Of a stretch of DNA of 56,786 nucleotides, positions 20,132 to 56,786 are shown in pieces. Origin of the DNA: a virus; IMG/VR virus record IMGVR_UViG_3300025096_003284, positions 1 through 56,786 of that record; one strand, given 5' to 3'. Within the stretch, counting starts at the first letter, position 1. Every line of letters begins with the position of its first letter. The notes under the pieces are model-generated. The model was not told the origin of the DNA. It was given only the letters and a program-made list of their open reading frames with translations, and did not search any database. A program made the translations under genes and the position numbers.

Positions 20132-20454
20132 CAGAACTACACTTATTTTTAATAATATCAGTTCTCCTTAACGGAGGCCTTATATGGTATGTAACAAGAA
20201 TTTTAAGAAAATTTGTGTTCATATCAGAGAATTTGTCTGATCTATTTTTAACCACAAAGGCATTTCAAGTCTTTGTGAATTCATTATATGGGATGGATAA
20301 TTATCATGGCGAACCTATGATACAAGAACTGGTATTTAAAATTAGTCAAGTTACTGAGGAAATAGAAATGTTTCGCGACATATTTGAATATACACTAGAT
20401 GAAGAACTAGAGGAAGAACTAAATGCCGCCGCGGAAGAAAAGATCGAAGAATAA
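20128..20454 (+). CDS. Small membrane-anchored acidic protein
   Basis: A 108-residue protein with one probable N-terminal transmembrane segment at residues 4-22 (LHLFLIISVLLNGGLIWYV). A basic patch (RILRKF) follows it, predicting an N-out, C-in anchor. The cytoplasmic part ends in a strongly acidic helix (DEELEEELNAAAEEKIEE). No family is recognised. Its last 32 bases overlap the sigma-factor gene. GAGGAACG precedes the ATG. Confidence 0.65.
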   Translation: MTELHLFLIISVLLNGGLIWYVTRILRKFVFISENLSDLFLTTKAFQVFVNSLYGMDNYHGEPMIQELVFKISQVTEEIEMFRDIFEYTLDEELEEELNAAAEEKIEE

Positions 20455-21118
20455 AAACCATTATTTTACAAAAGTCCATGAAGACGCAATTGTAAAATAC
20501 GCCAACACTGAAGACAGGGAACTGAGGTCAAAGCTGTATGTAGAATACATTCAGCCTGCTTTTGACCAGATGGTCGATAAAATTATTTATACTTATCGTT
20601 TTACCACCCTGCCCAATATTGATTACTTAAAAGCCGACTGTAAGGTCTGGCTCACAACTATTTTAAATAAGTATGATCCGAGCAAAGGATCAAAAGCCTT
20701 TTCCTATTTTTCTGTTGTAACTAAAAACTGGTTTATCCACAAAGTTAAGCGCACCCAGAAGCGAAACAGGACCGAAGTCTTCATGGAAGATATCCTGAAT
20801 GAGCTGGATGAAAATTTAGTATCCACCGAACCCACTTATCTACAAAAGCGCCAAGATATAGAATTTTGGTCTTCTCTCCATGGAGAAATTGATACTTGGG
20901 ATGGCTTTATGCTGAAGGAAAACGAAAAAAAGGTTTTAATGGCTGTTCGTATTTTATTGGACTCTGCTGATACAATTGAAATTTTTAATAAAAAAGCTAT
21001 TTACTTATACTTGCGAGAGATTACTGGCCTCAACACCAAACAGGTTGTTAATAATCTCAATAAACTGAGGAAGCGTTACAAAACGTTTAAAAGTAAATGG
21101 CAAAACGGCGAGATCTAA
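20423..21118 (+). CDS. T4 gp55-like late-transcription sigma factor
   Basis: A 231-residue sigma-like protein that would direct host RNA polymerase to late promoters. TTILNKYDPSKGSKAFSYFSVVTKNWFIHKVKR resembles the sigma region 2 core of T4 gp55 and its relatives, with the aromatic cluster expected to contact the -10 element. The N-terminus is very basic (PPRKKRSKNKN). The C-terminal helix-rich segment lacks a convincing region 4, as in gp55. AGAGGAAG precedes the ATG. It sits directly upstream of the tail genes it would be expected to control. Confidence 0.82.
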   Translation: MPPRKKRSKNKNHYFTKVHEDAIVKYANTEDRELRSKLYVEYIQPAFDQMVDKIIYTYRFTTLPNIDYLKADCKVWLTTILNKYDPSKGSKAFSYFSVVTKNWFIHKVKRTQKRNRTEVFMEDILNELDENLVSTEPTYLQKRQDIEFWSSLHGEIDTWDGFMLKENEKKVLMAVRILLDSADTIEIFNKKAIYLYLREITGLNTKQVVNNLNKLRKRYKTFKSKWQNGEI

Positions 21119-24450: not shown

Positions 24451-27400
24451 ATGCCAGCCAAATTAAATTTTTATAAAGAGTTCCCCGGGAAGCCTCTCAA
24501 CATACCGTTTGAAGAGAAGGGCATTCCTTACCTTAAGTTTAAATTACGTAAAAAAATCAAAGACCAGGATACAATTTATAATAAAGCGATTGATCATTAT
24601 GTAACTCATTACTTTCCTGAATTTTATCGCAACATGAAGGATCCTGAGTTTGATGGCGACGATACATATTATGATGAATTAAGACAAACCCTCCGGTCAG
24701 CAATCCGGACCGAAAACCCTGGATATGCTACAGCGCCCCCTACTGCCAATCATATTATTATAACGCGTTTGGAGATGGACCAAACGATAGCCGAGCTAAG
24801 AAACTCAATGGCACGCCAAGATCAGCTCCCAGAATTTCGGCCTAGCCTAGAGTTCTTTAATAAAAAGAACAACATCAGCACTGAGATAGCCTCTCAAACG
24901 GAAATTCAATTAGAACATATTCTCACCGACATGGATTTGTTCGGAGCTGTAATGAAGGATTTCGGGAAACAAAAAGATAACTATAGCGGCGCCGTACCCC
25001 TAGGGGGAATTAATTTTAATTTTCTAGGTGGTGATATTTCTAAGGTTATAACTGTAATCCTGCGCGAGGTTCTTAAGGACGTTGAGGCCACTATGGGCGA
25101 AACCTACCGCGCGGAAGAGGGAGACGTGCTTACAATATATTTCTCTGAACGCACCGGGCCACCCGAAGGAGAATTGGAGTCGTCTGCACCACCACCGGAT
25201 CCGCTCAATATTTTTAATGTTCCAAAAATAGCGATCGCCGGAATTACTTATTCCGCCGCCGCGGCCACTGGCACTGAGTTCCTTAAGGTAGGATATCTAT
25301 CTCTCATTAAGTATAAGAAGCGATTCCGAGATCCCTTAACTCTTAAGACGTTACAAAAATATAATGATGTTCTGCTCAAAGCCGGCGAGAGCAACGCCGC
25401 CGGACAGCCATTTCCGATGTTTGAGTTTTTGTCCGAAACACTACCAGATCAAATACAGACAGATCAGAACAACGGTGATCTTTTTAGTTTCCCTACCCCC
25501 AATGATCAAAACAATAATGACAACAACGCGCTTCTTCAAGAGGCTATTCGTCTTGGTCTCATCGATGTTACTGATACCAAAGAATTGGAAGACGGCATAA
25601 AAGCCTTAACTACTGATGAGCTAACACAGCTTAGGGCCGCAGTCGAAAGCAATCCGGAGCTGGCAGAAAAAGTATATCAGGCAGAGCGCAAAAAGAATCT
25701 TGAGACTGGCATCAACATTGCTAATAATATTGAGAGGGCTTTTGAAATAGGCCCCCTTGCCATGTTCGAGCACTGCAGCGCGTTGGATAAAATATTAGAA
25801 AAAATAGGACTCAAGGCATTAGCCAAGGAGGCTTTGATCTGTTTAACCTTCGGAATAAATTTTGAAATTAGTCGCATCGCGGCCGCCGTGGGTAACGTAA
25901 TGGAGGAGGAACTTCTATCCCGACCATCCATAGATCCTCAAACGTTTGATATATTTAAAATCAAAGGAGATCTCTGGAAAACCATCTTAGATATGATTTT
26001 GAACTCCTTGCAACAAGCCCTCCTTGCGCTTGTTAAAAGCCTAACCGAGATGCTCAAGGAGGCGTGCAATCTCAATAACCCCCGCGCCAGTGACTACGGA
26101 AATACCGATCTTGCAGGCCTGATTGCCGACAACTTTCTGGATCCCCTCGCCGGCGTAAATCCATTTGGCTACGGCAATGATGGCAACAGCCCACTCGGAG
26201 ATTTGATAAATCTTTTAGGCATGCCACAAGAAGATATCTACAAGTACGTCAGCGACCTGTCATCTATTCTAAGTTCTCTGGACATTTGCATTCTTCTCAT
26301 GGACATACAATCAGCGTCCGACGAACTAATCGATCGAATTATTGAGTTTAATTTAGGATATGGAGATTCTAATATTTCAACCAAACTCATAGATGTTTCG
26401 TCGGTTATTGAATTCTTTACGCTCCTGGGGAATGTAACAGATGTAACTGATCTGTGCAATGAGATTATTAATGATCTGTCATTGTTGAACCAAGATAATA
26501 TTTGTTTAGACATCGGTCAACTTGATGCCCAAGAGATGCAGAATATTGAGGATTTGCTAGACATTATTGAAAACGGATTCACAGATGAACCCCCCGTATA
26601 TAACTTTGATTGCCCTGAGGCCGAAAACTATATTAGTGACCCGACCATAACCAGACTTATACCGGAAACTTTGAGCACGCTGGTAGAACTTGTTGAGATG
26701 CAGTTCGTTTATTCAGTCGACTCGATAAAAAATGTTCTCTTAGAGCCTTCCATCGCCCGGGCCGGTGGCTCTGGAGCTAAGGGGGAGACAGCCTATGGAA
26801 CCGCACTTAAGAGTGTTCCTGACGCCGAGGACTGGCCCGAATTACCTAAAGCCGGCGTGTCGGCCCTGCTCTCGATAATGAAAGCACTCAAAGAGGTGTC
26901 CTCTGGCTCTTCCGACCTCCGCGATGCGCTCGAAGCGTGTTTGATTGATGTTCCGGGCCTTCTAAATCCAGACCTTCGGAACATTGGCGAGGCCATTGAT
27001 ATTTTAATGGACGTTCTGATGTCACCAGAAATTTCTGATGCACTAGAAAACATTTCAGACAAAGCAGATCAACTCAATCAGGGGACTGGCCCAGCAGTTA
27101 TGACCTATCGCTTCAACCAAGAGTTTTATAATAAGTTTGTGGACTACATTAATATTGATGAGGCCGACTGGAAAAGGTTATCGACAACACCCTCACGGAC
27201 CCAGTATTATATTAAAGATCGTTTTAAGTATATCACCTCCGAAGAAACAAATACCAACCGAGTTATGTTTTCGTTTCCCGATATAGCGTCGACTCCTACC
27301 CTTGCGGGCCTCCGGGATGGTACAGTAACGGCGACTACGGGAGAGAGACTCGATTGTAAGGACCAACAACAAATTAATCAAATATTAGATTTCGGAGGCA

Positions 27401-29805: not shown

Positions 29806-30195
29806 ATGTCCGGACTTTCGGTAGCACTACCATTAGAATTCAGTGAGGTTTTCGGACCTTATGTTCGCAACATGACCTTTAATGCCCTGGCCAAGCAAAA
29901 CTTAAAAATGTTGCTCCTCACCATCCCAGGAGAGCGAATTATGGATATTAATTTTGGCGTCGGTATTCCTAGATATTTGTTTGAGAATAATGGACCAGAT
30001 ACTTATAGTGCAATTGCCGGCAAGATCCGGGAACAGGTAGACATATACTTGCCATATATTGCAATTGATGATGTCGTCTTTAATTATGTGGAGGACAACC
30101 CGGACCTGTTCCCTAATTCGCTGAATTTGAGTGTTTATTTTACTATCATCCCGTTACAACAGTCAGATTCTTTAGAAATTGATATACACAACTAA
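29806..30195 (+). CDS. Baseplate wedge subunit, gp25-like
   Basis: A 129-residue protein close in length to T4 gp25 (132 residues). LKMLLLTIPGERIMDINFGVGIPRYLFEN is the gp25/lysozyme-like signature, and the rest follows the small alpha/beta fold that caps the tail sheath at the baseplate. Despite the family's historical name it is structural, not a lysozyme. It is followed 16 bases later by the gp6-like gene, the conserved gp25-gp6 order of contractile tails. Confidence 0.93.
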   Translation: MSGLSVALPLEFSEVFGPYVRNMTFNALAKQNLKMLLLTIPGERIMDINFGVGIPRYLFENNGPDTYSAIAGKIREQVDIYLPYIAIDDVVFNYVEDNPDLFPNSLNLSVYFTIIPLQQSDSLEIDIHN

Positions 30196-33597: not shown

Positions 33598-36500
33598 ATG
33601 AGCATTAAGAAATACTTTGAAGTTGCCGAAAACATTCAGTCACTGGCAAACAAAACCTCTAACGATATTTCGGGAGAAGTAGAATCCTCGGGATATCATG
33701 CGCAGGATATCATCAAAGAAGAGAGGTATATTCCTTATGCTGATTTTAAAAAGCCTGAAAACTTTGCCCGGTGGGGTTCTGCTGAAGAATATTATGAATC
33801 TGCCATTAAGAGAATTTATGGTACTTATCCATACGACGGCTCTCTTAAAGAGAGGCTAGAGTGGGAAAATGAGTCCACATATCTAGATCTTTATCTTCTT
33901 GAAGAGCGCTACCCTCGCACAAACGGCTATATTATTCTGTCGGCCGACAGTACCGCGGTCAGCCAGGTTAATGATGGATATGGACGCCCCTCAACCCCGG
34001 AATACATCTTCTTCAGAGGCGGCCCTAACCCCACTACGGGTCAAAGTGACACCCTAGCCGGCCAATTTACTGGTTCTAACTACTATGAGCCGTCGATGAA
34101 CCGGGCCTCTAACTTACAGTATGATCTCGCTTCGCGCGGCACATCGCTAGAATTCTGGCTCAAGAAGGATAACTTCTCTGACCCTAGTGTTACTTCTCGC
34201 GAAGTAATCTTTGATATGTGGAACGGCCAGAATTCCTCATCCGCTGATTATGGGCGCCTGCGCCTGGAGCTTTCCGCCAGTGGTGATAGTGTCCTGGGCG
34301 CAAACCCGTTATTGCTTACAGCATTATCGGGAACGACTGGATTTTATCGGCAGCCTATTGCAGCAAGTACTTTTACTACTTCCTCACTAGCAGATGGAAA
34401 CTGGCACCACTATGCAGTGACAATGAAGTCTGCATCTGCCGGAGTAACTACTAAATTCTATGTGGATGGCCAACTTAATAATACTACTACTTTGGGAACC
34501 GCGGGGATTAATGATATTTCAACACCAGGATTACGGGCTCACATCGGCGCCTTGGTTGACCAAGTCTCAGGTTCCTGGACTACTCCGAGCCCCACACTAG
34601 CCGGCGACGGCAAGCTCGACGCCTCTCTAGACGAATTCCGCTACTGGAAAACACAGCGAACTTCTAAAGACATTGGTCGCTATTGGTTTACACAGGTAGG
34701 AGGCGGTGTTAATACCGACCCGAAGCCATATATTACAACTCAAGAACTAGCAAACACAAATCTGGGCGTTTATTTTAAGTTTAATGAGGGCATTACCGGC
34801 ATAACTAGCACCGACAGCACCGTATTAGATTACTCTGGCCGTTATTCAAATGGTACGTGGACAGGCTATAACGCGAACTCTAGAAACACTGGCTCTGCTA
34901 TTGTTTCGTCTAGTGCTGCAACTCATGAGTTCCTGGACCCTATTATCTATGTTTCACACCCCAAGGTGCAGGCGCTAAAAACAGAACTTCAATTGTCTGG
35001 CTCCACCTATGACGTCGACAATAATGCTGCCATTTACAACAGCATCCCGTCATGGATTAGCGAAGAGGACAGTGAAGGCACCAAGAATGTTAAGTATTTA
35101 ACCCAAATTCTCGGAAGCTATTTTGACACTCTTCATCTTCAGATCGATAATTTAAACACTCTTGGTGAGAAACGCTATGTGAGTGGCAGCTTTGAGAAGC
35201 CAATCCCCTTCGCGGAGAAGCTAGTATCCTCAACAGGTATCGTCGCTCCGAACTTGTTCCTAGATGCGGATGTTTTAGAAAAGCTAGCCGACCGAAGCGA
35301 AGACCGCGTGTATGCGATGTCTTTGCACGATATTAAGAATACGATCTACCAAAACATCTACAATAATATATCTTACATCTATAAGTCAAAGGGGACCGAG
35401 AAAGCCTTCCGTAACCTTATCAGGTGCTTCGGAATTGATGATGAACTTGTTAAATCCAATATGTATGCCAGCAACGTGGAATATGAATTGCGAAACAACA
35501 GGCGCAACACTGTTGTGGCTGACAAATTTATTGATTTTAATACAGAAGACAATCAAGTAGCTACAGTCTTCAACTATCCCAATTCTGCCAACGCCAACTC
35601 AGTTGGTTATATTACTTCGAGTACAAATCTTACAGGAGGATTCTCTACAACCCTAGAAGCAGAGATTATGTTTCCTCTCAAGCCCTCCCAGGAACAGGCG
35701 CAGGGATTTTTTAACACGAACGTGATTAGTTCATCTCTGTTTGGAATGCATGGCGCGATGCCTCACGATGCAAACGACACGACTTGGCTGACAAACCTTG
35801 AAGCTGTCAACTTTCAGGTTTATGCTGTTCGTGACGAATTGTTGTCCGATAATGCTACCTTTGTGCTCACAAGTTCTGGGGATGGTCATATACCGGTCAT
35901 CTCTTCCTCGCTCTACCAAGATGTATATAACAACCAGAGATGGAATCTGTCGGTTCGAATCCGTCCCGAACAGTATCCAGTAAAGGGCCTAGTAGACGGA
36001 GCTAGCTCCAATTACGTAGTTGAACTTCATGGCGTCCAGGCACAAGCCGGGGAAATCATGGAACAGTTTACTGTTTCGGGGAGCATTTCAAGTGCAGGCC
36101 TACCAGCTGCATTTATGACCGGCTCGCGTCGTGCCTACATTGGTGCCCACAGAACCAATATGACAGGCAACGTTTTACAGACTTCCGATGTGAAGGTTAA
36201 TGCTTGTCGGTATTGGCTGGACTATGTCGACGATGAAGCTTTAGCCGGCCATATTCTAGATACGGAGAATCACGGTGCTATGCAGCCGCACCTCTATGCT
36301 TTCCCGTTCCAAACATCAGCGTCTTTCGGCGATGTTAAAAAGATAGACACTTTGATATTCAATTGGGAGTTCCTTACTAACACGGGATCTAGTGCTAGTG
36401 GATATCTTACGGTTGCAGATATTAGTTCTGGATCAGCGCCAAAGACTGGATTGGACACTGGGTTTTCAATTGATAACCTCCTAAACCAGCAGCACACAGC

Positions 36501-39500
36501 ACAAGGACGATTCTTCAAGACCTCATCAACTTCAGCTATCGATAAGGACTTCGTCGTCGCCGCGCGCCTGAATCTCCCCGAGAATGTACAGTCCGAAGAT
36601 ATGGTGAAGGTCCTCAATGCCCAAGAGCAGGATGTGTTTACTTCTGACTCGCGGCCAACCAGCTATTTCTTCGCGTTCGAGAAGAGTATGTATCAGGTTA
36701 TCTCGGAAGAGATGGTTAATTATTTCGCTAACCTTAAGGATTTCAACAACTTAATTGGTGATCAGGTGGAACGATATCGACCTGATTATAAGCAGTTGTC
36801 TTTCATGCGGCAGAAGTTCTTTGAGCAAGTTGGCAACGATAGTCTTGACTTTGATAAGTTCTATGAATTCTATAAGTGGTTCGATAGTTCCCTTTCGTTA
36901 ATGCTCGGACAACTTGTCCCGGCCTCGGCAGACTTTAGTGATAATGTTCGTACCATAATCGAGAATCACGTTCTTGAAAGGCCAAAGTACCAGCAGAAAT
37001 TTCCGTTCCTGCAGCGCAAGGGTGGCGGCGATATTACGAGTTCAGCTGACGGCAATATGGCTGCAGATAGCTCGATGATGTCTTCGCCAGAGGAATTCGC
37101 ACAAGGTACTGCTTTCTTCACAAACACCGCGATGACAAAACGTCAGATTGGCTCTTCGAATACGTCGCAGAACAGGCCGTGGAAGCATTTCCACGCTCCC
37201 CTCGCTCGGAGCGCTCCTTCTGCCAAGTCCATGCTTTTCGATGGCGACAACCCCAGCGAGATTGATATTGGTGCCGATTCTGTTTGGAATCCTCTAGTAG
37301 GACTCGCCGGCGCTGACGCAAAAGCTTTTACTATCTCTGCCTGGATTAAAGCAGATGGAACAACAGGACAAGGAATCGGCTACGGAGTGATATTGGATTT
37401 TGCTGCCTGGGACCGTACCTTCATGATAGATTATTCTTCGTTGCCTTATAGCACTTATAATCTTAAGTATTATATGCGCGGTAGCACCCCCGGCGAGGCT
37501 ACCACCGCCGCCGGCGGCTTGAACAAAGACGTCTGGTATCACGTTGCTGTCACCTATACCGGCGGCACAGCCGGCACAATAACTCTATATGTGGACGGTG
37601 CAGCCGCCACCGACTCGGTCACGACACCCTCTGTTCCCGACGCCATCGGTAGCGGTCATGGTTGCAACATCGGAGTAGATTATGGAGGCAGCGTGGAAGC
37701 CTTCGGCGGCAACATGTGTGATGTCGCCATTTGGGACAAAGCCCTCTCAGCAGCCGAAGTAGTCGAAATTGCCGGCGCAGGCAGACGAGTTAATTTAAGG
37801 GAAGTGAGTGCCGTATCTAATCTTCTGACGTGGTGGATGATGGGTTCGGACCCTCTGGATACTTACAATGGTACAATTTATGATCAGATAGGCGGACGCA
37901 ACGGCGCGGCGGCAGGCTTTAACTCGGCCGCCGATATAGAATTTGACTCTCCAGTAATGAAAAGCCCCTACTATGGTGCTGGACCTGCCAACAAGAACAT
38001 GTACTGGCACCGCTATCTTGAAGAGCGCTCCGGTAGCGCGATGCCATCAGGTGATGCCGCGCGCCAAAGCCTTCTCGGCTCAATTAGAAATACCTTCGAC
38101 CGTCGAGTAAACTCTCCGGTCAAGCTCGCAGTAGAGGGTTACACAGCAATTGGTGGCGTTGGACGGCATCATAACTTCGTAGCCAATTATGTTTTTGAAG
38201 CCGCTGCAGCATGGGGCCGTACGGTTGGTACCAATGCGCCTGTCAATATCCTCCTAGCCCATTCGGGTGGTATAGAAAAACTTCTCGGTACTACCGATGA
38301 ATACTACCCCACCTTTAAGCAGCGCCTAGGATTTAAACTAAACCCAGGAGCAAACAGTGGCAAGGATAATGCCTTTGACGGCAATATGTATGCGCCATTT
38401 AGTCTCTATAGCTCATCGGTGACAACTGGGTATAACGCAGAAGTGGTAACTAACTGGACTGGTAATGTTGAAATTACAAACCTTCACCACGATTTTGTAG
38501 CCGGGACTGATATTCCAATGCAGGGTCCATTCACCGAGAAGTACGTTGGAGGGCGCCAGTATCGCCATACAGCGCTCAACAAGGGCCCGACGCTAGATAC
38601 TGTGGAAACCCGCGCCGAAGGCTTTAGAATCCAGTTTAACGACGTTACAGCCTCTGGTGGTGGAACGTTTAAGAACTCTCTGGCGATTATTCCGCCCAAC
38701 TCGTTAGGCGGCGCCGCTGATTGGTGGAGCCCGCCGACTGCCTATCGCATGCGCACTGCGACCGCAAAGCGCCCGGTTAACATCCGCAACATCAAGATGA
38801 CGACTGGTTCAACGATCATTGGCAACTACGAGAAGAACTATCAGGTAATTAATACGGGAGGACGTACTCTGAACGACCCGTACTTTAAAGATCAATCTTT
38901 CAATTTTGCTTTGTATCCTGAGACGCTGGCAACAAGGGGAAGATTTCCGCTTTATGAGCCCGAGCCTGTTGAGGCCAAATCGATATTGTTTGACGCTAGT
39001 TTGGGGACTGTCGTCTACGACACGGACGACTCCGCCTGGGAGAGTGCGCTAAGTAATGTTTCCACCGACGGCCTTACCATTTCCTTCTGGTTCAATTATA
39101 CGGGTTCCCCTTTAACTACCCCGCGACTGGTTAATCTGGGAACCATCCAATCTGGAATCTTCAAGTTCGATGGATTCAGCATGCGGTTATACTTCGCTGA
39201 CCCTAATTGGGTTCTTTATGCCAACCTCCGTGACCCCACCGCCGCGGCATCCTACGCACAAGGCACCACAGGTCTTGCGGCGGACACCTGGTATCATGCT
39301 ATTATAGAGTTCCCCGCCGGGGCCCTCGACGGGACCGATTCTGAGGTACCGGCGATCTATCTTAATAACTCACTCGAAGTTTTAGCTGGTTCGGATGGCG
39401 CCGCCGACTGGAGTACTCTCGAGGCGCTCGACACTGGCATCAGCCTCGGTGATCACGGCGTGCTCAGCGACCCTTATAATGGCTATTTATGCGACGTGGC

Positions 39501-42500
39501 TATTATTAACAAAAGCATAAATTCGGCCGAGCGCGCTTTGCTTTATAATGATGGAAAGAGAACAAATATTGCTCTAGACGGCCTCGGCGCCAATCTGGTG
39601 GCATACTATCGCCTAGGTAACAAGAGCGTACAGGGGAATGCTGATTCAACCACGGGGGATATCTATAATTCAGTAATCACCAACGACATTCCCAACGCAA
39701 TGCCGAGATACTTTACGAACACCGCTACCAACGGAATCAAGGGACAATCTCCCAGCGCGCTATCGCCGGCGAGCGATTGGCCCGTACTCTTCCGTATACT
39801 CAATAAGCCAACCGCCAACCCTGGCGGCAATCTCAACTTCCTGGTGCCGATGCGAACAGGCTCAGCATCTCAAAAGACTGTTATAGTTAACCGGTTCGCC
39901 GGCAGTGGCTATGAGGTGATGTCTTTAGGATATATGGATCCCGCTCACGAAGAGTTGTCAGTGTACAATGCGCTGCCTTATCACAACCTTGCAATAATTG
40001 ATTACGGTCTCTCAGGCTCGGCATCCGTAGATCCTCTCGCGCCACGGACAATTACAGTTGTCGATCAGCTTGATAAAAACCGAGGCCTCAACCAGCGCGC
40101 CACACTGCATGCAGGAATGTATGGTGTCGACTCCGCGTATGGAGCCATCAATGTTGGCAACACGCGCGTAGACGGCGGCCTGGGCTATCCTGTGACACCT
40201 TCTTGGCACAAGACAAACAGGAACAGGGTCCGTCGCATGGATAACCTCGCAACTGATGACACTCCTGCTGATTATCCGGTAGCAAACAACTTTACTGCGT
40301 CTGTTTATGACAATCTCTACGTCCAGCACGCAATCCCTCGCTCAGAGGCACAATACGCGTGGATTACAGGCTCGATGATCGCTGGTACAACGATCTTTGG
40401 TTTGGATCGGCCTTCTTGTTTCAGTGCGAGCACGTTGAGTCAGCTTGTGACAGCGAGTGATGGACAGGTTGCATTTCAGGCTGCGGGCGCCTGGTCTTTC
40501 GGCGGCCAAGAATCAGGCTTTACTGATGGCCGCGGCATCGTCCCGGTAGATTTTGCTGGATTAAATACTATTATCCTTGAGCCAGTATCGGCGTCATCTC
40601 ACATCCTGGGATATCCTAGAATGCAAAGTACGCCGTTGCTTGATGTACAAGGCAGCAATAATTATCTTAACCAGAGCGACGGATATAATCCTCTTGGCAC
40701 CCAAGGATTCCTCCAGACCGGCCCAATGGTGTCACTTCCGACCCTCGGCTACGCGGGAAGTGCTGGTGTGTTTAATGCCCTCCTTCTTAATCGCAACGGA
40801 CCTTACGGGTGGCCAACATGGAAACAGATTCGCGCCGGCGAAAGCAAGGTTGCCCGCAATCTGCGAAAGAACAGCCTCATCGGCACAGTTGTTCCTCCTC
40901 CCAAGATTGCCAACACAATCGGCGGAAAGCAGGTTAGTTTCATTCAGCCCACTCAGCCAAACAGCTTTGTGGACTTTTATGAAGCACCAATCGAGTCAAG
41001 CAATAACCCCATCTATTTCTACTTTGAGGACAACACTGAAAACTCAGATTCAGACAACAACGTCATTTTGACGGTTCCATATGGCAACCGGCTTGAATAC
41101 TTCTCGAACACGGGCCTCAACAACTATCTTGGGTTGCAGATTGATATGAACAAAGAAACTGCGTATGATGCGGTGGTTGACATTGCAATTTCCAGCTCTC
41201 TCAGCCTAAAGGTTGAATATAGCCAGCGCGTCTATCCTTCGATGGTGAATGCTTATAATGATATAGTCCGCGCGAGGACAACATTTACTATTGCGAATAT
41301 TTGGAGCTCTTTTCGCGACGTTCGAAGTGGCGGCGGCAGAGGAAGATCGATCGGATCGGGCCCAATAAGCGCTTTTCGATTTTCGGGATCGCAGGGGCAG
41401 TTAGTTGCAAGTTCGAGCATTTGGCCCCTTGATGGCCCCAGGCCGAATGTAGGCGGAGGCCCAACCCTCTTAACGTCTTCCATTACTGCTAGCGACGGCG
41501 CCGGCGAACTGATGAACTTCTACAGTAGATGGGCCCATCGCAACACGGGCTCCTACCGCGGAAATCAGAATGAGAATCCATTTATAAATCTCTTAACACA
41601 AAGTTGGGCCGCCCCAACTTATGCATCCCGAGTCCCGGCAGGCTGCGCCGGCAACGACACGCTCGTCAATAGTATGGTCCTCGCTGGGGCTCCTCCGTGG
41701 ATCGCACCTTCTCAGGCTAACAAAGATCCGTATGAAAACTACACGGATTACGCTGACCAGATACGCGCCGCAGCAAAAGATTATTCTATTGTTCCCGAAT
41801 ATAGAGTGAGCCCGCTAATGGACTTGTATGTGAATCGATCCGCCGGCGACTTTTTGTCTACGGCAGCTGACTTCAATCTTACGGGTGCAGCTTATGTCGA
41901 CAGTTCTGTCGATAAATTCTACAGAACATATTCAAACTCAGATTTCCTGAAGTACTTCAAGTATGTAGATGAAGATTTAAACAATCAAAGATCCGGAGAT
42001 CTGAAGATTAAAAGAGATAAGATTTCTCTCAGCTGTGAAGCATTTATAAAGTTTCTCCCCTATAAGGGTTTTTACCCTGCTGAAAGAACTCTGGAGTTGG
42101 CTACTATTTTGTCGAAGTCCTTCGGGCCCCAGCTGGTCTATACACCAAGCCTAAACGGCCAAGGTTACACAGATTTCAGATTTTTCTTTAATCCGCGGTC
42201 TGCCTATAGGATTTTCTTAGAGCCCTTAATGGCCCCGGGGATTTTGTTTAATACGATTAAATCTGGCCTTGCCTGCAGTAATTTTGTATTAACGGAAGGC
42301 AGCGAGCGCTGGAACTGGCTCAAAACCGAGTCAAACTTGCTCCCCACCGCTTCGCAAACGTCTCCGGAGACGAGTTATCCTGAAACTGACCCAAGTGTCG
42401 GCTTGTATTACGGCCTTAATCCCAATGTAGTTACAATGCCGAACCCGGGGGCCAGGGCATCAGGCAGTTCTGCTCGAATTCTGTCTTTGGGATCTTCGTC

Positions 42501-44568
42501 ATCCGGGAGCTATGATTCTGGCCAGAATGATTCGCATAACTTTATGTTGAGAAAGATGCCCTTTGAGGCCATTTATCGTCCCACACAATATTTCAACGCT
42601 AACTTCATCGGGGGCGACAGCCGAGATGCACCTGTCTCCATATATGACACAGCTGCCTCAGGCACTTCAGCATGGATCCCAACGTGGCTTAGTTATGGTG
42701 GATACAACATTGGTATCCCGTGGCAGTCTTCTGTCCTAATGGGGATTCCAACCGTCTATCGAACCTCAGGCCTTGTTGACGTCTCACCAGAACTGGGTGG
42801 TGGTGAGGATTACACCCTGGCAATTGACAATTTTCTGTGTGAGAGTATGAATATGTTTGTCGACGGTGGGGCAAGCTTGGTGTCAGCGCGGCAAGAGAAC
42901 TTTCAAGATCAAGTTGAGGGGCGCATATATACGGGCGTGGTGAAATTGTTCAGGACGCTGACCGGCTCACAAGGAACCAGTGAACCGTTTGAAATGTATA
43001 GTCGTGCAAGCGCTTTTGGGGCCCCGTTGGACGCAAACACACGTAAAACGGCCGAACCCGGCACCGGCGACCACGAGACCGGAACGAAAGGAATATCGTT
43101 CTCTCATGTGACACCCCCTTATTTTGCTGGAGAGAGCTACGTCACATTAACTTATACGGCATCTTATAGTGGACGCCCCGATTTGGATGATATTTTTGCA
43201 CAAATGACGTCTTCCTATTATCGAGATGAATATGTGGAGAATCTCAACGCCGCTAGCGCAGTTGAAAGGGGCACCAACGAAGACATAAGAATGCAGATTA
43301 AAGATAGTGTGAACCTCTTTACCAAGATTCAAGAGGTGCCAGAGGGAACCAACGATCAAAAGTCGCGATGGCTCATTCAACCTAAGTTTGAAACGCCCAT
43401 TTTGAACTTTGCGGGAGTATCGACCGGGTCAGCAATGGTTCCCTCTCACACCAGAACACCAGCCCCTGGATACCCACAGACGGCGAGCGCTAATCAAATT
43501 ACCACCCGCGGCATGTGGCATCAATATGGATCTGTAATTTCATCTTCCAACGCCGGCGTCTTTCTCTCATGCCAAGACAAGCTTTATGACCAACCAACGA
43601 CCGACGGCATAAACTTCAGTCTTAGGCGCCACTCTCTATGGGATCTAGTAGGCATGCCCTCTGGTAAAAACCAGCGCATTGGCAACCCTAAGAATGAGTT
43701 CCTCTTAGAAGAAGCAGTTGTGGCTGTGCCATTTAAGACAGTATCCGGAGCACGACAGTTTATTGGTTTCCCAACTCGATCCCCCACATATAATTATAAA
43801 ACCACACGTACGTGGCACGCGCTGAATGGGGCGATGAACAAATATGTGTTCCCGCCAATTTTTGACTTTATCCGGTTTGAAACAGTAGACCCGGTGCTAA
43901 TGTATGTGTTTGAATTCTCCGCGAAACTCAATCAGAAAGACATCACGGACATCTGGCAGAACTTGCCACCCGATGTGGCTGAACGCTTTGAAGTACAAAA
44001 CGCAGTGGTTGAAGAGAAAGAACTCATTGACTCAATCGTATCCAAGAACCATGACATTGAGTGGATGGTATTCAAGGTTAAGAAGCGCGCAAAGAAGGAC
44101 TTCGAAAAGTTCCGTCGTTCGCTGGTTTCCGAGGCTGATCTGTCAGCATTTCCAGATACCATTAGATCTCCGATGACTTATAACTGGCCCTATGATTACT
44201 GCTCTTTAGTTGAGTTGGCAAAGATTGAAGAGACAGCGACATACGTTTCGACAGATCTCAAGAAAAATGCGCAACTTACTCCGCTGGAGGAGTTGAATAT
44301 AGAGCGAATAACATTCGTTGATGAGGTGGCCATTCCTACGACAATAAGACGACCAACTCGACAGCCACGCCGCCGCAGAAAGCGACGACCGGCACCAAGG
44401 AACCGCCGCACCCGCGGCCGCATAACCCCGACTAGAACTCGACGTCGTAGGCCCCCCACACGTCGACGCAGAGCCACACTGCCCTCCGCGACCTTACCTC
44501 GCCGACGGCGCAGCTCTCGTCGTCGACCCACCCGTTCTCGACGTAGGACCAGAGGAGGCTCCCGATAA
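33598..44568 (+). CDS. Giant baseplate/fibre protein: tail-I-like region, three LamG domains, Arg-rich tail
   Basis: A 3656-residue protein, the largest in the window, in the place held by gp7 in T4. LamG/concanavalin-like domains lie at ~160-365 (SLEFWLKKDN, GNWHHYAVTM), ~1212-1420 (MLFDGDN, FTISAWIKADG, WYHVAVTY) and ~1795-2010 (ILFDASLG, ISFWFNY, WYHAIIEF). Residues ~580-615 (YNNISYIYKSKGTEKAFRNLI) resemble tail protein I/gp7-like wedge segments. LamG domains usually bind glycans, so receptor or host-surface contact is likely. Residues 3582-3656 are extremely arginine-rich. No frameshift is visible across almost 11 kb. Confidence 0.82.
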   Translation: MSIKKYFEVAENIQSLANKTSNDISGEVESSGYHAQDIIKEERYIPYADFKKPENFARWGSAEEYYESAIKRIYGTYPYDGSLKERLEWENESTYLDLYLLEERYPRTNGYIILSADSTAVSQVNDGYGRPSTPEYIFFRGGPNPTTGQSDTLAGQFTGSNYYEPSMNRASNLQYDLASRGTSLEFWLKKDNFSDPSVTSREVIFDMWNGQNSSSADYGRLRLELSASGDSVLGANPLLLTALSGTTGFYRQPIAASTFTTSSLADGNWHHYAVTMKSASAGVTTKFYVDGQLNNTTTLGTAGINDISTPGLRAHIGALVDQVSGSWTTPSPTLAGDGKLDASLDEFRYWKTQRTSKDIGRYWFTQVGGGVNTDPKPYITTQELANTNLGVYFKFNEGITGITSTDSTVLDYSGRYSNGTWTGYNANSRNTGSAIVSSSAATHEFLDPIIYVSHPKVQALKTELQLSGSTYDVDNNAAIYNSIPSWISEEDSEGTKNVKYLTQILGSYFDTLHLQIDNLNTLGEKRYVSGSFEKPIPFAEKLVSSTGIVAPNLFLDADVLEKLADRSEDRVYAMSLHDIKNTIYQNIYNNISYIYKSKGTEKAFRNLIRCFGIDDELVKSNMYASNVEYELRNNRRNTVVADKFIDFNTEDNQVATVFNYPNSANANSVGYITSSTNLTGGFSTTLEAEIMFPLKPSQEQAQGFFNTNVISSSLFGMHGAMPHDANDTTWLTNLEAVNFQVYAVRDELLSDNATFVLTSSGDGHIPVISSSLYQDVYNNQRWNLSVRIRPEQYPVKGLVDGASSNYVVELHGVQAQAGEIMEQFTVSGSISSAGLPAAFMTGSRRAYIGAHRTNMTGNVLQTSDVKVNACRYWLDYVDDEALAGHILDTENHGAMQPHLYAFPFQTSASFGDVKKIDTLIFNWEFLTNTGSSASGYLTVADISSGSAPKTGLDTGFSIDNLLNQQHTAQGRFFKTSSTSAIDKDFVVAARLNLPENVQSEDMVKVLNAQEQDVFTSDSRPTSYFFAFEKSMYQVISEEMVNYFANLKDFNNLIGDQVERYRPDYKQLSFMRQKFFEQVGNDSLDFDKFYEFYKWFDSSLSLMLGQLVPASADFSDNVRTIIENHVLERPKYQQKFPFLQRKGGGDITSSADGNMAADSSMMSSPEEFAQGTAFFTNTAMTKRQIGSSNTSQNRPWKHFHAPLARSAPSAKSMLFDGDNPSEIDIGADSVWNPLVGLAGADAKAFTISAWIKADGTTGQGIGYGVILDFAAWDRTFMIDYSSLPYSTYNLKYYMRGSTPGEATTAAGGLNKDVWYHVAVTYTGGTAGTITLYVDGAAATDSVTTPSVPDAIGSGHGCNIGVDYGGSVEAFGGNMCDVAIWDKALSAAEVVEIAGAGRRVNLREVSAVSNLLTWWMMGSDPLDTYNGTIYDQIGGRNGAAAGFNSAADIEFDSPVMKSPYYGAGPANKNMYWHRYLEERSGSAMPSGDAARQSLLGSIRNTFDRRVNSPVKLAVEGYTAIGGVGRHHNFVANYVFEAAAAWGRTVGTNAPVNILLAHSGGIEKLLGTTDEYYPTFKQRLGFKLNPGANSGKDNAFDGNMYAPFSLYSSSVTTGYNAEVVTNWTGNVEITNLHHDFVAGTDIPMQGPFTEKYVGGRQYRHTALNKGPTLDTVETRAEGFRIQFNDVTASGGGTFKNSLAIIPPNSLGGAADWWSPPTAYRMRTATAKRPVNIRNIKMTTGSTIIGNYEKNYQVINTGGRTLNDPYFKDQSFNFALYPETLATRGRFPLYEPEPVEAKSILFDASLGTVVYDTDDSAWESALSNVSTDGLTISFWFNYTGSPLTTPRLVNLGTIQSGIFKFDGFSMRLYFADPNWVLYANLRDPTAAASYAQGTTGLAADTWYHAIIEFPAGALDGTDSEVPAIYLNNSLEVLAGSDGAADWSTLEALDTGISLGDHGVLSDPYNGYLCDVAIINKSINSAERALLYNDGKRTNIALDGLGANLVAYYRLGNKSVQGNADSTTGDIYNSVITNDIPNAMPRYFTNTATNGIKGQSPSALSPASDWPVLFRILNKPTANPGGNLNFLVPMRTGSASQKTVIVNRFAGSGYEVMSLGYMDPAHEELSVYNALPYHNLAIIDYGLSGSASVDPLAPRTITVVDQLDKNRGLNQRATLHAGMYGVDSAYGAINVGNTRVDGGLGYPVTPSWHKTNRNRVRRMDNLATDDTPADYPVANNFTASVYDNLYVQHAIPRSEAQYAWITGSMIAGTTIFGLDRPSCFSASTLSQLVTASDGQVAFQAAGAWSFGGQESGFTDGRGIVPVDFAGLNTIILEPVSASSHILGYPRMQSTPLLDVQGSNNYLNQSDGYNPLGTQGFLQTGPMVSLPTLGYAGSAGVFNALLLNRNGPYGWPTWKQIRAGESKVARNLRKNSLIGTVVPPPKIANTIGGKQVSFIQPTQPNSFVDFYEAPIESSNNPIYFYFEDNTENSDSDNNVILTVPYGNRLEYFSNTGLNNYLGLQIDMNKETAYDAVVDIAISSSLSLKVEYSQRVYPSMVNAYNDIVRARTTFTIANIWSSFRDVRSGGGRGRSIGSGPISAFRFSGSQGQLVASSSIWPLDGPRPNVGGGPTLLTSSITASDGAGELMNFYSRWAHRNTGSYRGNQNENPFINLLTQSWAAPTYASRVPAGCAGNDTLVNSMVLAGAPPWIAPSQANKDPYENYTDYADQIRAAAKDYSIVPEYRVSPLMDLYVNRSAGDFLSTAADFNLTGAAYVDSSVDKFYRTYSNSDFLKYFKYVDEDLNNQRSGDLKIKRDKISLSCEAFIKFLPYKGFYPAERTLELATILSKSFGPQLVYTPSLNGQGYTDFRFFFNPRSAYRIFLEPLMAPGILFNTIKSGLACSNFVLTEGSERWNWLKTESNLLPTASQTSPETSYPETDPSVGLYYGLNPNVVTMPNPGARASGSSARILSLGSSSSGSYDSGQNDSHNFMLRKMPFEAIYRPTQYFNANFIGGDSRDAPVSIYDTAASGTSAWIPTWLSYGGYNIGIPWQSSVLMGIPTVYRTSGLVDVSPELGGGEDYTLAIDNFLCESMNMFVDGGASLVSARQENFQDQVEGRIYTGVVKLFRTLTGSQGTSEPFEMYSRASAFGAPLDANTRKTAEPGTGDHETGTKGISFSHVTPPYFAGESYVTLTYTASYSGRPDLDDIFAQMTSSYYRDEYVENLNAASAVERGTNEDIRMQIKDSVNLFTKIQEVPEGTNDQKSRWLIQPKFETPILNFAGVSTGSAMVPSHTRTPAPGYPQTASANQITTRGMWHQYGSVISSSNAGVFLSCQDKLYDQPTTDGINFSLRRHSLWDLVGMPSGKNQRIGNPKNEFLLEEAVVAVPFKTVSGARQFIGFPTRSPTYNYKTTRTWHALNGAMNKYVFPPIFDFIRFETVDPVLMYVFEFSAKLNQKDITDIWQNLPPDVAERFEVQNAVVEEKELIDSIVSKNHDIEWMVFKVKKRAKKDFEKFRRSLVSEADLSAFPDTIRSPMTYNWPYDYCSLVELAKIEETATYVSTDLKKNAQLTPLEELNIERITFVDEVAIPTTIRRPTRQPRRRRKRRPAPRNRRTRGRITPTRTRRRRPPTRRRRATLPSATLPRRRRSSRRRPTRSRRRTRGGSR
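44341..44565 (+). other. Arg-rich C-terminal tail of the giant structural protein
   Basis: This stretch codes for the last 75 residues of the giant protein, of which 36 are Arg and none are Asp or Glu. Six different Arg codons are mixed, so it is not a simple DNA repeat. Blocks of three to four Arg are separated by Pro, Thr or Ser. The antisense frame is open only because Arg codons complement to sense codons. Confidence 0.95.
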
Positions 44569-54397: not shown

Positions 54398-54931
54398 ATG
54401 ATCTTAGGCTTAGACATCTCAACCAGCATAACTGGTTATACAGTACTGGATTACGAAGGCAACATTCTTGCTTGCGACCACATTGACTTGCGAAAAGAAA
54501 AGAACTTCTTTAAGAAAATACAAATTGTGAGAAAGTGCCTGGAGGACTTAGAGGGCGAATATCCTATAGAGCAGGTGTATGTCGAACAGTCACTCCAGTC
54601 TTTCCGCTCCGGGTTCTCATCAGCACAAACCTTATCACTTTTATCAAAAATAAACGGCATTGTTTCGTGGTTATGTTATAATATGTTTTACGGCGAACCC
54701 AAGTATCTTGCTGCTACATCCGCTCGCAAGTTGTGCGGTATTAAGATTCCCAAGGGACAGAAAGCAAAAAAGGTTTCTTTGCAGTTTGTCATTGACAACG
54801 TGCCTGGTTTTGATGTAGAATACACTAGACATGGAAATCCTAAGGCTGGTTATGCTGACCGGTCCGATAGCTATGTGATCGCAAAGGCAGGCTGGATCCG
54901 TGAAAGAGAAGAAGCTAAAGATACTGACTAA
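54398..54931 (+). CDS. RuvC-like Holliday-junction resolvase
   Basis: A 177-residue RNase-H-fold nuclease. Acidic catalytic residues are Asp6 (GLDIS), Glu63 (YVEQSL) and Asp154 with Asp157 near the C-terminus (YADRSDSYVIAKAG), in the RuvC order. RuvC itself is 173 residues. T4 uses an unrelated endonuclease VII for this step, so this phage has substituted a RuvC type. It would resolve branched DNA before packaging. Its end overlaps the primase frame. Confidence 0.9.
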   Translation: MILGLDISTSITGYTVLDYEGNILACDHIDLRKEKNFFKKIQIVRKCLEDLEGEYPIEQVYVEQSLQSFRSGFSSAQTLSLLSKINGIVSWLCYNMFYGEPKYLAATSARKLCGIKIPKGQKAKKVSLQFVIDNVPGFDVEYTRHGNPKAGYADRSDSYVIAKAGWIREREEAKDTD

Positions 54932-55835
54932 TGTGTTGGGGACCGGCTACCGGACCAACAATGAATATCTTTTTAAATGCCCCTACTGTGAACATCACAA
55001 GCGCAAGTTCTCTGTAAATTTAGATAAAGGCTACTATAAATGCTGGGTGTGTGACACCCGCGGCAAGAATATCTATCGTGTCGTTCGCCGTTTTGGCACG
55101 AACCACGACAAGTCGCAGTGGCGAGACTTCACTTCCGAGATTGATTTTGATCAACTCGAAGATTTATTCGCCGAGAAAATAGAAGAAAAACAGATACTTG
55201 AGATGCCCGAAGGGTTTATCTCACTGGCAAACAGAGAGATGCCACCTACCGGCTTCGCCGCAATGAACTATCTACGACAGCGTGGTATCACTAAGCAAGA
55301 CATTGTTTGGTGGAAGATGGGCTATTGCAGCAAGGGAGAGTACGAAGGCAGAATCATAATTCCATCGTTTGATGACGAAGGAGACTTGAGCTATTTTGTA
55401 TCCCGATCTTATGATAGATCCTATTATCCTAAGTATAAGAACCCTCCGGCAAGTCGTAATATTATATTCAACGATTTGTTTGTGGATTGGAGTTCGGACA
55501 TTATCTTGGTCGAAGGGATTTTTGATGCGATCAATGCAGGTCGCAATGCGGTTCCTATTCTCGGTTCCACACTAAATCAGAATTCCGTCCTGCTTCGCAA
55601 GATCGTAAAAGAGGATGCGGGAGTGTATGTGGCCCTCGACCCGGACGCAACGAAGAAAGAGCTTGAGATTATAAAGACTTTGTTGGATTTTGACATTGAA
55701 GTCTGGAAGGTAAATATCGGGGATAATGAAGATGTGGGCTCCATGAACAAGGAACAATTCCAGAAATGCTTGGAAAATGCGACCCTTATCACTCCAGACA
55801 ACTATTTATTGTTGACGCTTGCCATGTCCGTCTAG
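54900..55835 (+). CDS. DnaG/gp61-like DNA primase
   Basis: A 311-residue primase, close to the 342 residues of T4 gp61. Cys27, Cys30, Cys48 and Cys51 (CPYC and CWVC) form the zinc ribbon. The TOPRIM core is seen as LVEGIFDAINAG and ALDPDATKKE, with the conserved Glu and the DxD pair that bind metal. The start is uncertain: GTG at 54900 keeps the whole zinc domain but overlaps the resolvase by 32 bases; GTG or TTG at 54933-54938 would also retain it. It would make primers for lagging-strand synthesis. Confidence 0.87.
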   Translation: MKEKKLKILTNVLGTGYRTNNEYLFKCPYCEHHKRKFSVNLDKGYYKCWVCDTRGKNIYRVVRRFGTNHDKSQWRDFTSEIDFDQLEDLFAEKIEEKQILEMPEGFISLANREMPPTGFAAMNYLRQRGITKQDIVWWKMGYCSKGEYEGRIIIPSFDDEGDLSYFVSRSYDRSYYPKYKNPPASRNIIFNDLFVDWSSDIILVEGIFDAINAGRNAVPILGSTLNQNSVLLRKIVKEDAGVYVALDPDATKKELEIIKTLLDFDIEVWKVNIGDNEDVGSMNKEQFQKCLENATLITPDNYLLLTLAMSV

Positions 55836-55843
55836 GAGCCCTT

Positions 55844-56236
55844 ATGAAATTGATAATGGAAAACTGGAAGAAGTTTATAAATGAAGAGGAAGGTTCCTCT
55901 GACATTCAGTGGTCATCATCCAATCAAGCCCCAATGGGTATGCGCGACGATGTCTACAGTGTTGAAGACGAACAACTTATTCAGCAAGCGCTCGGCCCGG
56001 ACTATTATGTGGTAGAGTTTCAATATGATGCCGCCGGAGAAGCCGGTATGGAAGCTCAAGACCGCTCGCGACAATACTTCGATAAGTATGTCAGCCGGCC
56101 AACAGCAGGCCCGAACGGCGAAATCGTTGTAATGCCGCAAAAGACACTTGAACAAGGGGGGCGCCGGGTAAACTATTTTAAGATGGCGCATGATCGAGAT
56201 GAAGACGGCAACATGTATGCGATGCTGGTGACCTAA
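55844..56236 (+). CDS. Small protein with capsid-targeting-like N-terminus, 1
   Basis: A 130-residue protein. The N-terminus MENWKKFINEEEG fits the same 15-residue pattern as the next two genes, with I12-N13-E14, a match to the (I/L)-x-E site cut by T4-type prohead protease. The body contains a QQALGPDYYVVEFQYD segment and is not recognised. I chose the ATG at 55844 because AGGA lies a few bases upstream and it falls after the primase stop. It may be an internal head protein; see the finding on this trio. Confidence 0.7.
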   Translation: MKLIMENWKKFINEEEGSSDIQWSSSNQAPMGMRDDVYSVEDEQLIQQALGPDYYVVEFQYDAAGEAGMEAQDRSRQYFDKYVSRPTAGPNGEIVVMPQKTLEQGGRRVNYFKMAHDRDEDGNMYAMLVT

Positions 56237-56452
56237 ATGAAAATTTCAACATCCCGTTTAAAACGAATCATCCACGAGGAACTCTTTTATCGAGAGTTTC
56301 GTCGTGAAGGCCTCGAATTAGAAGAAGCCAAGAAAGCCAAGGACGAAAGGATCTCACGAAAGATCGCATATCTGATGGATAAAGAGGGAAAGCCGAGAGA
56401 TCAGGCTGTAGCAATTGCTCACTCGATGGAAGAGCGTGGAGAATTAGAATGA
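56237..56452 (+). CDS. Small protein with capsid-targeting-like N-terminus, 2
   Basis: A 71-residue protein starting directly after the upstream stop. The N-terminal ISTSRLKRIIHEEL has I12-H13-E14 in the shared position. The C-terminal half (KIAYLMDKEGKPRDQAVAIAHSM) resembles a small helical motif seen in some phage and bacterial short proteins, with GKP-x-x-QAVAIA. It is rich in Lys, Arg and Glu. Its end overlaps the next start (ATGA). Confidence 0.7.
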   Translation: MKISTSRLKRIIHEELFYREFRREGLELEEAKKAKDERISRKIAYLMDKEGKPRDQAVAIAHSMEERGELE

Positions 56453-56786
56453 AAATCACCAAACAAAGACTTAAAGAGATTATCAAGGAAGAGCTTAATG
56501 AAGCCGCCAACCCAGAGTGGGAGTCGGCTGACAAGATTCTTAGAGATCTAGTGTATCTTGCGCAGGACTTAGAGGACAGTACCAGCGCCGAACCCGCGGC
56601 TCTCGCATCGGCAATCGTCGGCAAACTCCGCGAAGCCGTGGATGCTATGGAGCGACGCCTAAACGAGAAATTTGCAGAGGTAGAAGACGAGGTTTCGGAC
56701 GAAGAAGCACTAGAACTGAAGGGTAACCCCTCGCAGCGGGAAATTGATAGACTACGCCGTAAGTTAAAATATGGTTTTGAGGACTG
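56449..56786 (+). CDS. Protein with capsid-targeting-like N-terminus, 3; 3' end outside the window
   Basis: The first 112 residues are visible; the frame runs off the window end. The N-terminus ITKQRLKEIIKEELNEAA repeats the pattern with I12-K13-E14, and LNE-A a little later is a second possible protease site. The rest is acidic and helical (LREAVDAMERRLNEKFAEVEDEV), probably a coiled coil. Its ATG overlaps the previous stop. Confidence 0.75.
   Translation, partial: MKITKQRLKEIIKEELNEAANPEWESADKILRDLVYLAQDLEDSTSAEPAALASAIVGKLREAVDAMERRLNEKFAEVEDEVSDEEALELKGNPSQREIDRLRRKLKYGFED

Follow-up and report, generated by a model that had tools for sequence, protein, structure and literature searches.

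Two classes of N-terminal leader on unrelated small proteins of uncultured T4-like phages are probable capsid targeting sequences

Introduction

Because they have no common fold, proteins injected with phage DNA, which are the first counter-defences to act, are hard to recognise outside the T-even phages. In T-even phages, a leader is all that the internal proteins have in common, and it is via this leader that they have been found (PMC12373910, PMC9391042); Ip1-3 of T4 are injected inhibitors of type IV restriction enzymes (PMC12373910). For IPIII of T4, which starts with MKTYQEFIAE, it has been reported that residues 4 and 7 govern targeting and residues 8 and 10 processing (PMC9026906).

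The question treated here is raised by three consecutive open reading frames (ORFs) of a viral contig, whose products begin alike and continue differently: what is the shared N-terminus for? The whole stretch of DNA analysed, called the window below, has 56,786 b and is a complete IMG/VR contig, itself a genome fragment of a phage that is regarded as T4-like because of the T4-type baseplate wedge subunit at 29806..30195. A preliminary description of the window had compared the N-terminus with the T4 signal, and in the sequence comparisons reported here one of two such tags is present on hundreds of otherwise unrelated small proteins, very probably for head loading and delivery into the bacterium with the DNA.

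Sequences and searches

The primase at 54900..55835 was used as the query for fetching relatives, and viral contigs were scanned for the class A leader described below by means of a degenerate DNA pattern, with at least 120 matches. The pattern matches listed (at least 120) and the primase-fetched relatives gave 335 distinct leaders, which are the basis of the leader matrix. The T4 sequence was taken from X04567. The features of the window are as follows, with a slash marking a proposed cleavage position.

20423..21118, + strand: late sigma factor-like protein (phrog_234, E 9.8e-6), T4-like context
29806..30195, + strand: T4-type baseplate wedge subunit (phrog_261, E 1.5e-18)
54398..54931, + strand: RuvC-like Holliday junction resolvase (phrog_827, E 1.2e-6), context
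54900..55835, + strand: DnaG-like primase (phrog_47, E 2.5e-47), conserved gene directly upstream of the leader ORFs
55835..55838, + strand: GGAG, from sequence the likely ribosome binding site for the gene at 55844, the first with a leader
55844..56236, + strand: ORF of 130 aa with class B leader, from sequence; class A-led homologs in L161, L388, and L129
55844..55885, + strand: class B leader MKLIMENWKKFINE, residues 1-14, score 46.9; proposed cleavage after I12-N-E14
56237..56452, + strand: 71-aa ORF with class A leader; phrog_2423 short module at the C-terminus
56237..56278, + strand: class A leader MKISTSRLKRIIHE, residues 1-14, score 36.9
56449..56786, + strand: ORF of at least 112 aa with class A leader, cut by the contig end; homologs in L121 and L163
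56449..56502, + strand: class A leader MKITKQRLKEIIKEELNE, residues 1-18, score 52.0; candidate gp21-type sites I12-K-E14 and L16-N-E18/A

The tail/structural gene region of the window also contains a single ORF of 3,656 aa at 33598-44568.

Three ORFs behind the primase

The ORFs at 55844, 56237, and 56449 are closely spaced or overlapping, lie right behind the primase at the right contig end, and all start with ATG, with GGAG sites or stop/start overlap (TAAATG, ATGA). The first 15 residues of their products align without gaps, with M1, K2, (L/I)3, K9, (F/I)11, I12, E14, and E15 in common, and the bodies behind the leaders are unrelated, both as the preliminary description had it. Its view that one leader is common to the three ORFs is right as to these shared positions, but 55844 belongs to the other of two leader classes. 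No function match was obtained for the three window bodies, and structure prediction of 55844 from four sequences was of too low quality (mean pLDDT 40) to yield more than a low-confidence helix at residues 3-13.

Two leader classes

The leader occupies 14-16 residues at the ORF start, on otherwise unrelated bodies. Class A, found at 56237 and 56449, is MKITKxxLKxIIKEEL; class B is MKLIMENWKKFINEE at 55844, with the general form MK-L-(I/L)-MENW-(K/R)-x-(F/Y)-(L/I)-x-E, and is likewise found on many unrelated proteins. Among the 1,439 starts of the window, those at 56449 and 56237 score 52.0 and 36.9 with the class A matrix and the next unrelated start scores -21, while with the class B matrix 55844 scores 46.9 and the next best start -5.4. 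Of reversed-residue starts from six large related records, none exceeded 0 with the A matrix and none exceeded 8 with the B matrix. The A matrix, whose training set included relatives in part, set leader ORFs apart from all else in six relatives of 117-194 kb, at 6-12 per record.

Across the 335 leaders, nearly every column from position 1 to 16 holds 2-5 bits of information, compared with about 0.4 at positions 17-22 and below 0.1 after position 24. Since the DNA scan fixed several leader positions, conservation there is partly a result of selection, yet positions 4 (T/S), 5 (K), 7, and 13, which were not fixed by the scan, are conserved too. In an unbiased check, where loci were chosen by the primase alone, a leader ORF lay within 230 b of the primase stop at 39 of 40 loci, and the 40th locus has ..QWKKFLTEA. 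The leader pattern of the three ORFs is more than chance.

The group bearing these leaders consists of uncultured, mostly marine T4-like viruses. In tblastn against cultured phages, the bare class A leader gave no match, for which low-complexity filtering is perhaps responsible, and the bare class B leader gave chance matches only. In 84,980 bacterial/archaeal genomes, the class A pattern matched two contigs, both MAG contigs, of which L386 also bears a class B leader, and at least one of the two matches is on phage DNA. The contigs L385 and L386, assigned to Pelagibacter and Opitutia genomes, carry phage leaders and probably entered these bins as phage DNA by mistake. No paper containing the leader strings was found in a literature search.

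Size of the repertoire

The expectation that the pattern would recur at other N-termini has been borne out, and at least 710 leader proteins of both classes with unrelated bodies have been collected, which form 436 body clusters including 361 singletons. Each of six large relatives has 7-25 leader proteins when both classes are counted. In the window and its relatives taken together, 125 leader ORFs with 48 body clusters follow the primase. A cluster of about 100 bodies was rejected as a single family, the chain being linked via short shared modules.

Codon likeness among leaders (e.g., in G004, G001, and L127) is 0.59 within and 0.53 between records, compared with 0.44 predicted from body codon usage, and this excess suggests that leader DNA is copied between genes. 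In two ORFs, a second leader lies in frame: in L432:1351-3315 (G012:146356-148323) SAM lyase with a class B leader is followed by a class A leader, and in G013:141777-142631 both leaders are of class A. Either ORF looks like a fusion of two cargo genes.

Exchange of leaders and bodies

The body of 55844 is found behind a class A leader in L161:11537-11941, where BLAST identity is 77% overall and 88% over the body, and also in L388:1474-1884 and L129. The four leaders differ, but all keep M1, K2, I12, E14, and E15, and in each case the shared body follows directly on (I/L/V)-x-E, the four joints being FINE/EEGSSDIQWS, TLSE/SLEVQWS, VVTE/DLGSGIQWS, and VLSE/NSGIRWS. A second body family has class B leaders in L142 and L156 and class A leaders in L148, L153, and L136, and a third, represented by L055 and L234, starts at L-x-E in both classes. 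Because one body is thus met behind either class, the sequences indicate that the two leader classes are interchangeable. Conversely, the closest relative, L121, with a primase 98% identical to that of the window, has a class B leader with an unrelated body at the same locus; in BLAST against 55844, residues 1-14 align and nothing else. An HHMT motif was noticed in the leader proteins L055:2115-2609, L234:2596-3039, and L303:4662-5114, which are possibly 2H phosphoesterase-like; the two that were scanned have no Pfam match.

Ordinary recent duplication, with bodies diverged and first residues kept, would agree with the tandem arrangement and with the similarity of leader DNA within a lineage, but close relatives have one body with two leaders and one leader with unrelated bodies, and 361 of the 436 clusters are singletons, which leaves this explanation a negligible probability.

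Relation to the T4 head

IpII and IpIII of T4 both carry MKTYQEFIAE, where the spacing Y4-x-x-F7-I8-x-E10 corresponds to W8/F11/I12/E14 in class B and to L8/I11/I12/E14 in class A. The fixed leader positions therefore stand at the same intervals as the residues that experiments have shown to be critical in the T4 capsid targeting sequence (CTS), and the likeness to T4 proposed earlier is upheld in this respect. Relative to MKTYQEFIAE, the spacing is the same and the residues are different, in a leader whose length is too short for a homology test.

Peptidase_S77, the family of the T4 gp21 protease, was found in 36 of the 47 leader-bearing records collected, and in 13 of the 14 with at least 150 kb. 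The 14th of these and two shorter records have the T4 portal protein at a contig edge, a position from which the protease would fall outside the record. The Gp23 capsid protein was found in 15 of 19 leader-bearing records. In the near relative G004, which is the contig of L121 and has both protease and Gp23, the protease follows the leader cluster at a distance of about 15 kb. The gp21-like protease that the targeting proposal calls for is present in leader-bearing relatives, but in the window contig, which is a fragment, neither the protease nor the capsid gene was found. The search for the tail tube family gave no match in any record and is uninformative.

A conserved ORF with a class-A-like N-terminus, MKKSELKKILKPLIKECIKEVIFEEG, lies just downstream of the protease in 31 of 35 neighbourhoods, and in 19 of 35 there are leader ORFs no more than 3 kb from the protease. 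Both observations would suit an alternative in which the leader docks onto the prohead core, but most proteins bearing it serve in assembly or in the core, remaining in the head or leaving it, and are not injected cargo. We regard this as unlikely, since bodies turn over rapidly at the same site among close relatives and since the SAM lyase, NUDIX, zeta-toxin-like kinase, DNA methylase, and L,D-transpeptidase bodies are unlike scaffold proteins. Leader gene density near the protease is 0.138 per kb and elsewhere 0.082 per kb, a modest excess that counts against the CTS reading. The MKKSELKKILKPLIKECIKEVIFEEG ORF is possibly a core protein, and class A may mimic it or derive from it. In L349-L384, this ORF has about 140 aa and follows shortly after Peptidase_S77, and a small basic bS21-like ORF (..ERLIRRFIKKxKKEKIIE..) belongs to the head module of most relatives, at many loci some 0.8-1.5 kb beyond the protease motif on its downstream side. 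The conserved post-protease ORF and a scaffold-like ORF had no match in cultured phages.

A tag of the phage unrelated to the capsid, such as one for stability, localisation, or complex assembly, could be imagined because class A alone looks, from its sequence, like a generic amphipathic helix. We consider it highly improbable, since class A is exchanged with a class B leader whose spacing matches the T4 signal, since the leaders co-occur with gp21 and gp23, and since the joints come directly after (I/L/V)xE.

Predicted cleavage site

Class B ends in its own (L/I)-x-E, as the T4 leader does, and each of the window's three proteins has I12xE14. Class A leaders are often followed by a second (L/I/V/M)-x-E, with about tenfold enrichment at particular offsets, starting at residue 19 or 20 in 156 of 284 class A representatives and at residue 16 in 42 of them. 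In many class A leaders, this second LxE at residues 18-22 would be an equally good or better candidate site, and one cut at residue 14 for all leaders is therefore too simple. Removal after residue 14, as first proposed, is likely for 55844, but many class A proteins offer two options, of which this is only one. Class A also conserves E15, the residue next after the proposed site; cleavage alone needs no such residue, and this counts against the CTS reading.

Bodies as candidate cargo

Most leader bodies have no match, and those with a match include NUDIX, zeta-toxin-like kinase, cytosine DNA methylase, L,D-transpeptidase, and M23 peptidase. A SAM lyase (PF23780) is found behind a class-B-type leader in four phages, where the third was assigned because it resembles the other three and the leader of the fourth is degenerate, and each body comes directly after the E of the leader (YLTE/TSLTRI, VINE/SSLSRL, FINE/SGFSRV, FLNE/SSLSRV). 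Phage T3 has a SAM lyase that is known to act against restriction. The suggestion that the bodies may act against host defences is favoured by the SAM lyase of four relatives, but the window bodies themselves are without function match.

Discussion

The reading of the leader proteins as capsid cargo is well supported because the leader is found on many unrelated N-termini, protease and capsid genes are present in relatives, the spacing is that of the CTS, leaders and bodies are exchanged, and anti-restriction bodies occur. In all likelihood, the shared N-terminus is a capsid targeting sequence, to judge from the sequences compared. The leader, predicted to be a short amphipathic helix, would dock an unrelated protein onto the assembling prohead core, and a gp21-type protease would then cut after (I/L/V)-x-E, at E14 in class B and at E14 or E18-E22 in class A. 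This cut would set the mature protein free inside the head, and the cargo would be ejected with the DNA at infection and act at once on the host, probably often against its defences. The sequences show the leaders, their position, modularity, and exchange, the protease and capsid genes of relatives, and the enzyme bodies; docking, cleavage, packaging, and ejection are inferred from them, as is the purpose of the window's own three proteins. With somewhat less assurance, we also think it fairly likely that the two interchangeable tags act as head addresses by which a widespread uncultured T4-like group fills each virion with some 10-25 different proteins, among them enzymes such as SAM lyase, to be injected as a fast-changing anti-defence arsenal, and that the tag is a DNA module passed from gene to gene.

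The arrangement resembles that of IPI, IPII, and IPIII of T-even phages in its short common N-terminal leader on unrelated small proteins in tandem, in the form hydrophobic-x-x-hydrophobic-(I/L)-x-E, in the gp21-type protease of leader-bearing relatives, in belonging to a T4-like phage, and in fast-varying bodies. It differs from T4 in that the leaders are not MKTYQEFIAE, form two interchangeable classes, often have a second LxE, and occur in uncultured phages, with 7-25 leader proteins per large relative compared with three in T4. The principle is already known in T-even phages; what is new is that there are two other leader classes, that these are interchangeable, and that the repertoire is so large and belongs to uncultured phages. 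In phiKZ and SPN3US, N-terminal propeptides of head proteins are likewise cut off by the prohead protease, also after Glu. The motif of SPN3US is A-x-E, and propeptides of giant phages are mostly long (PMC5694885), whereas the motif here is (I/L/V)-x-E and not A-x-E.

The cultured Flavobacterium phage vB_FspM_immuto (NC_055915) has the same module order of primase, terminase, portal, Peptidase_S77, and Gp23, and it has its own leader sets, MKKSQLRxIIKEAL and MENFDLKKFLVEN, which are only distantly like classes A and B, on proteins mostly annotated as hypothetical. A third shared N-terminus, MKKQILSEQF(K/R)RMQxLAGIITE, was noticed in this phage (L344-L346; e.g., at 25061 and 111675). As a cultured relative with this head module and leader sets of its own, immuto is the natural test system.

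The leaders would serve as natural packaging tags, and a leader that can be read from sequence yields a candidate list of at least 710 proteins in 436 body clusters, mostly without known function. Since Ip1-3 of T4 can be specific inhibitors of restriction enzymes (PMC12373910), this list is a direct source of candidate anti-defence proteins.
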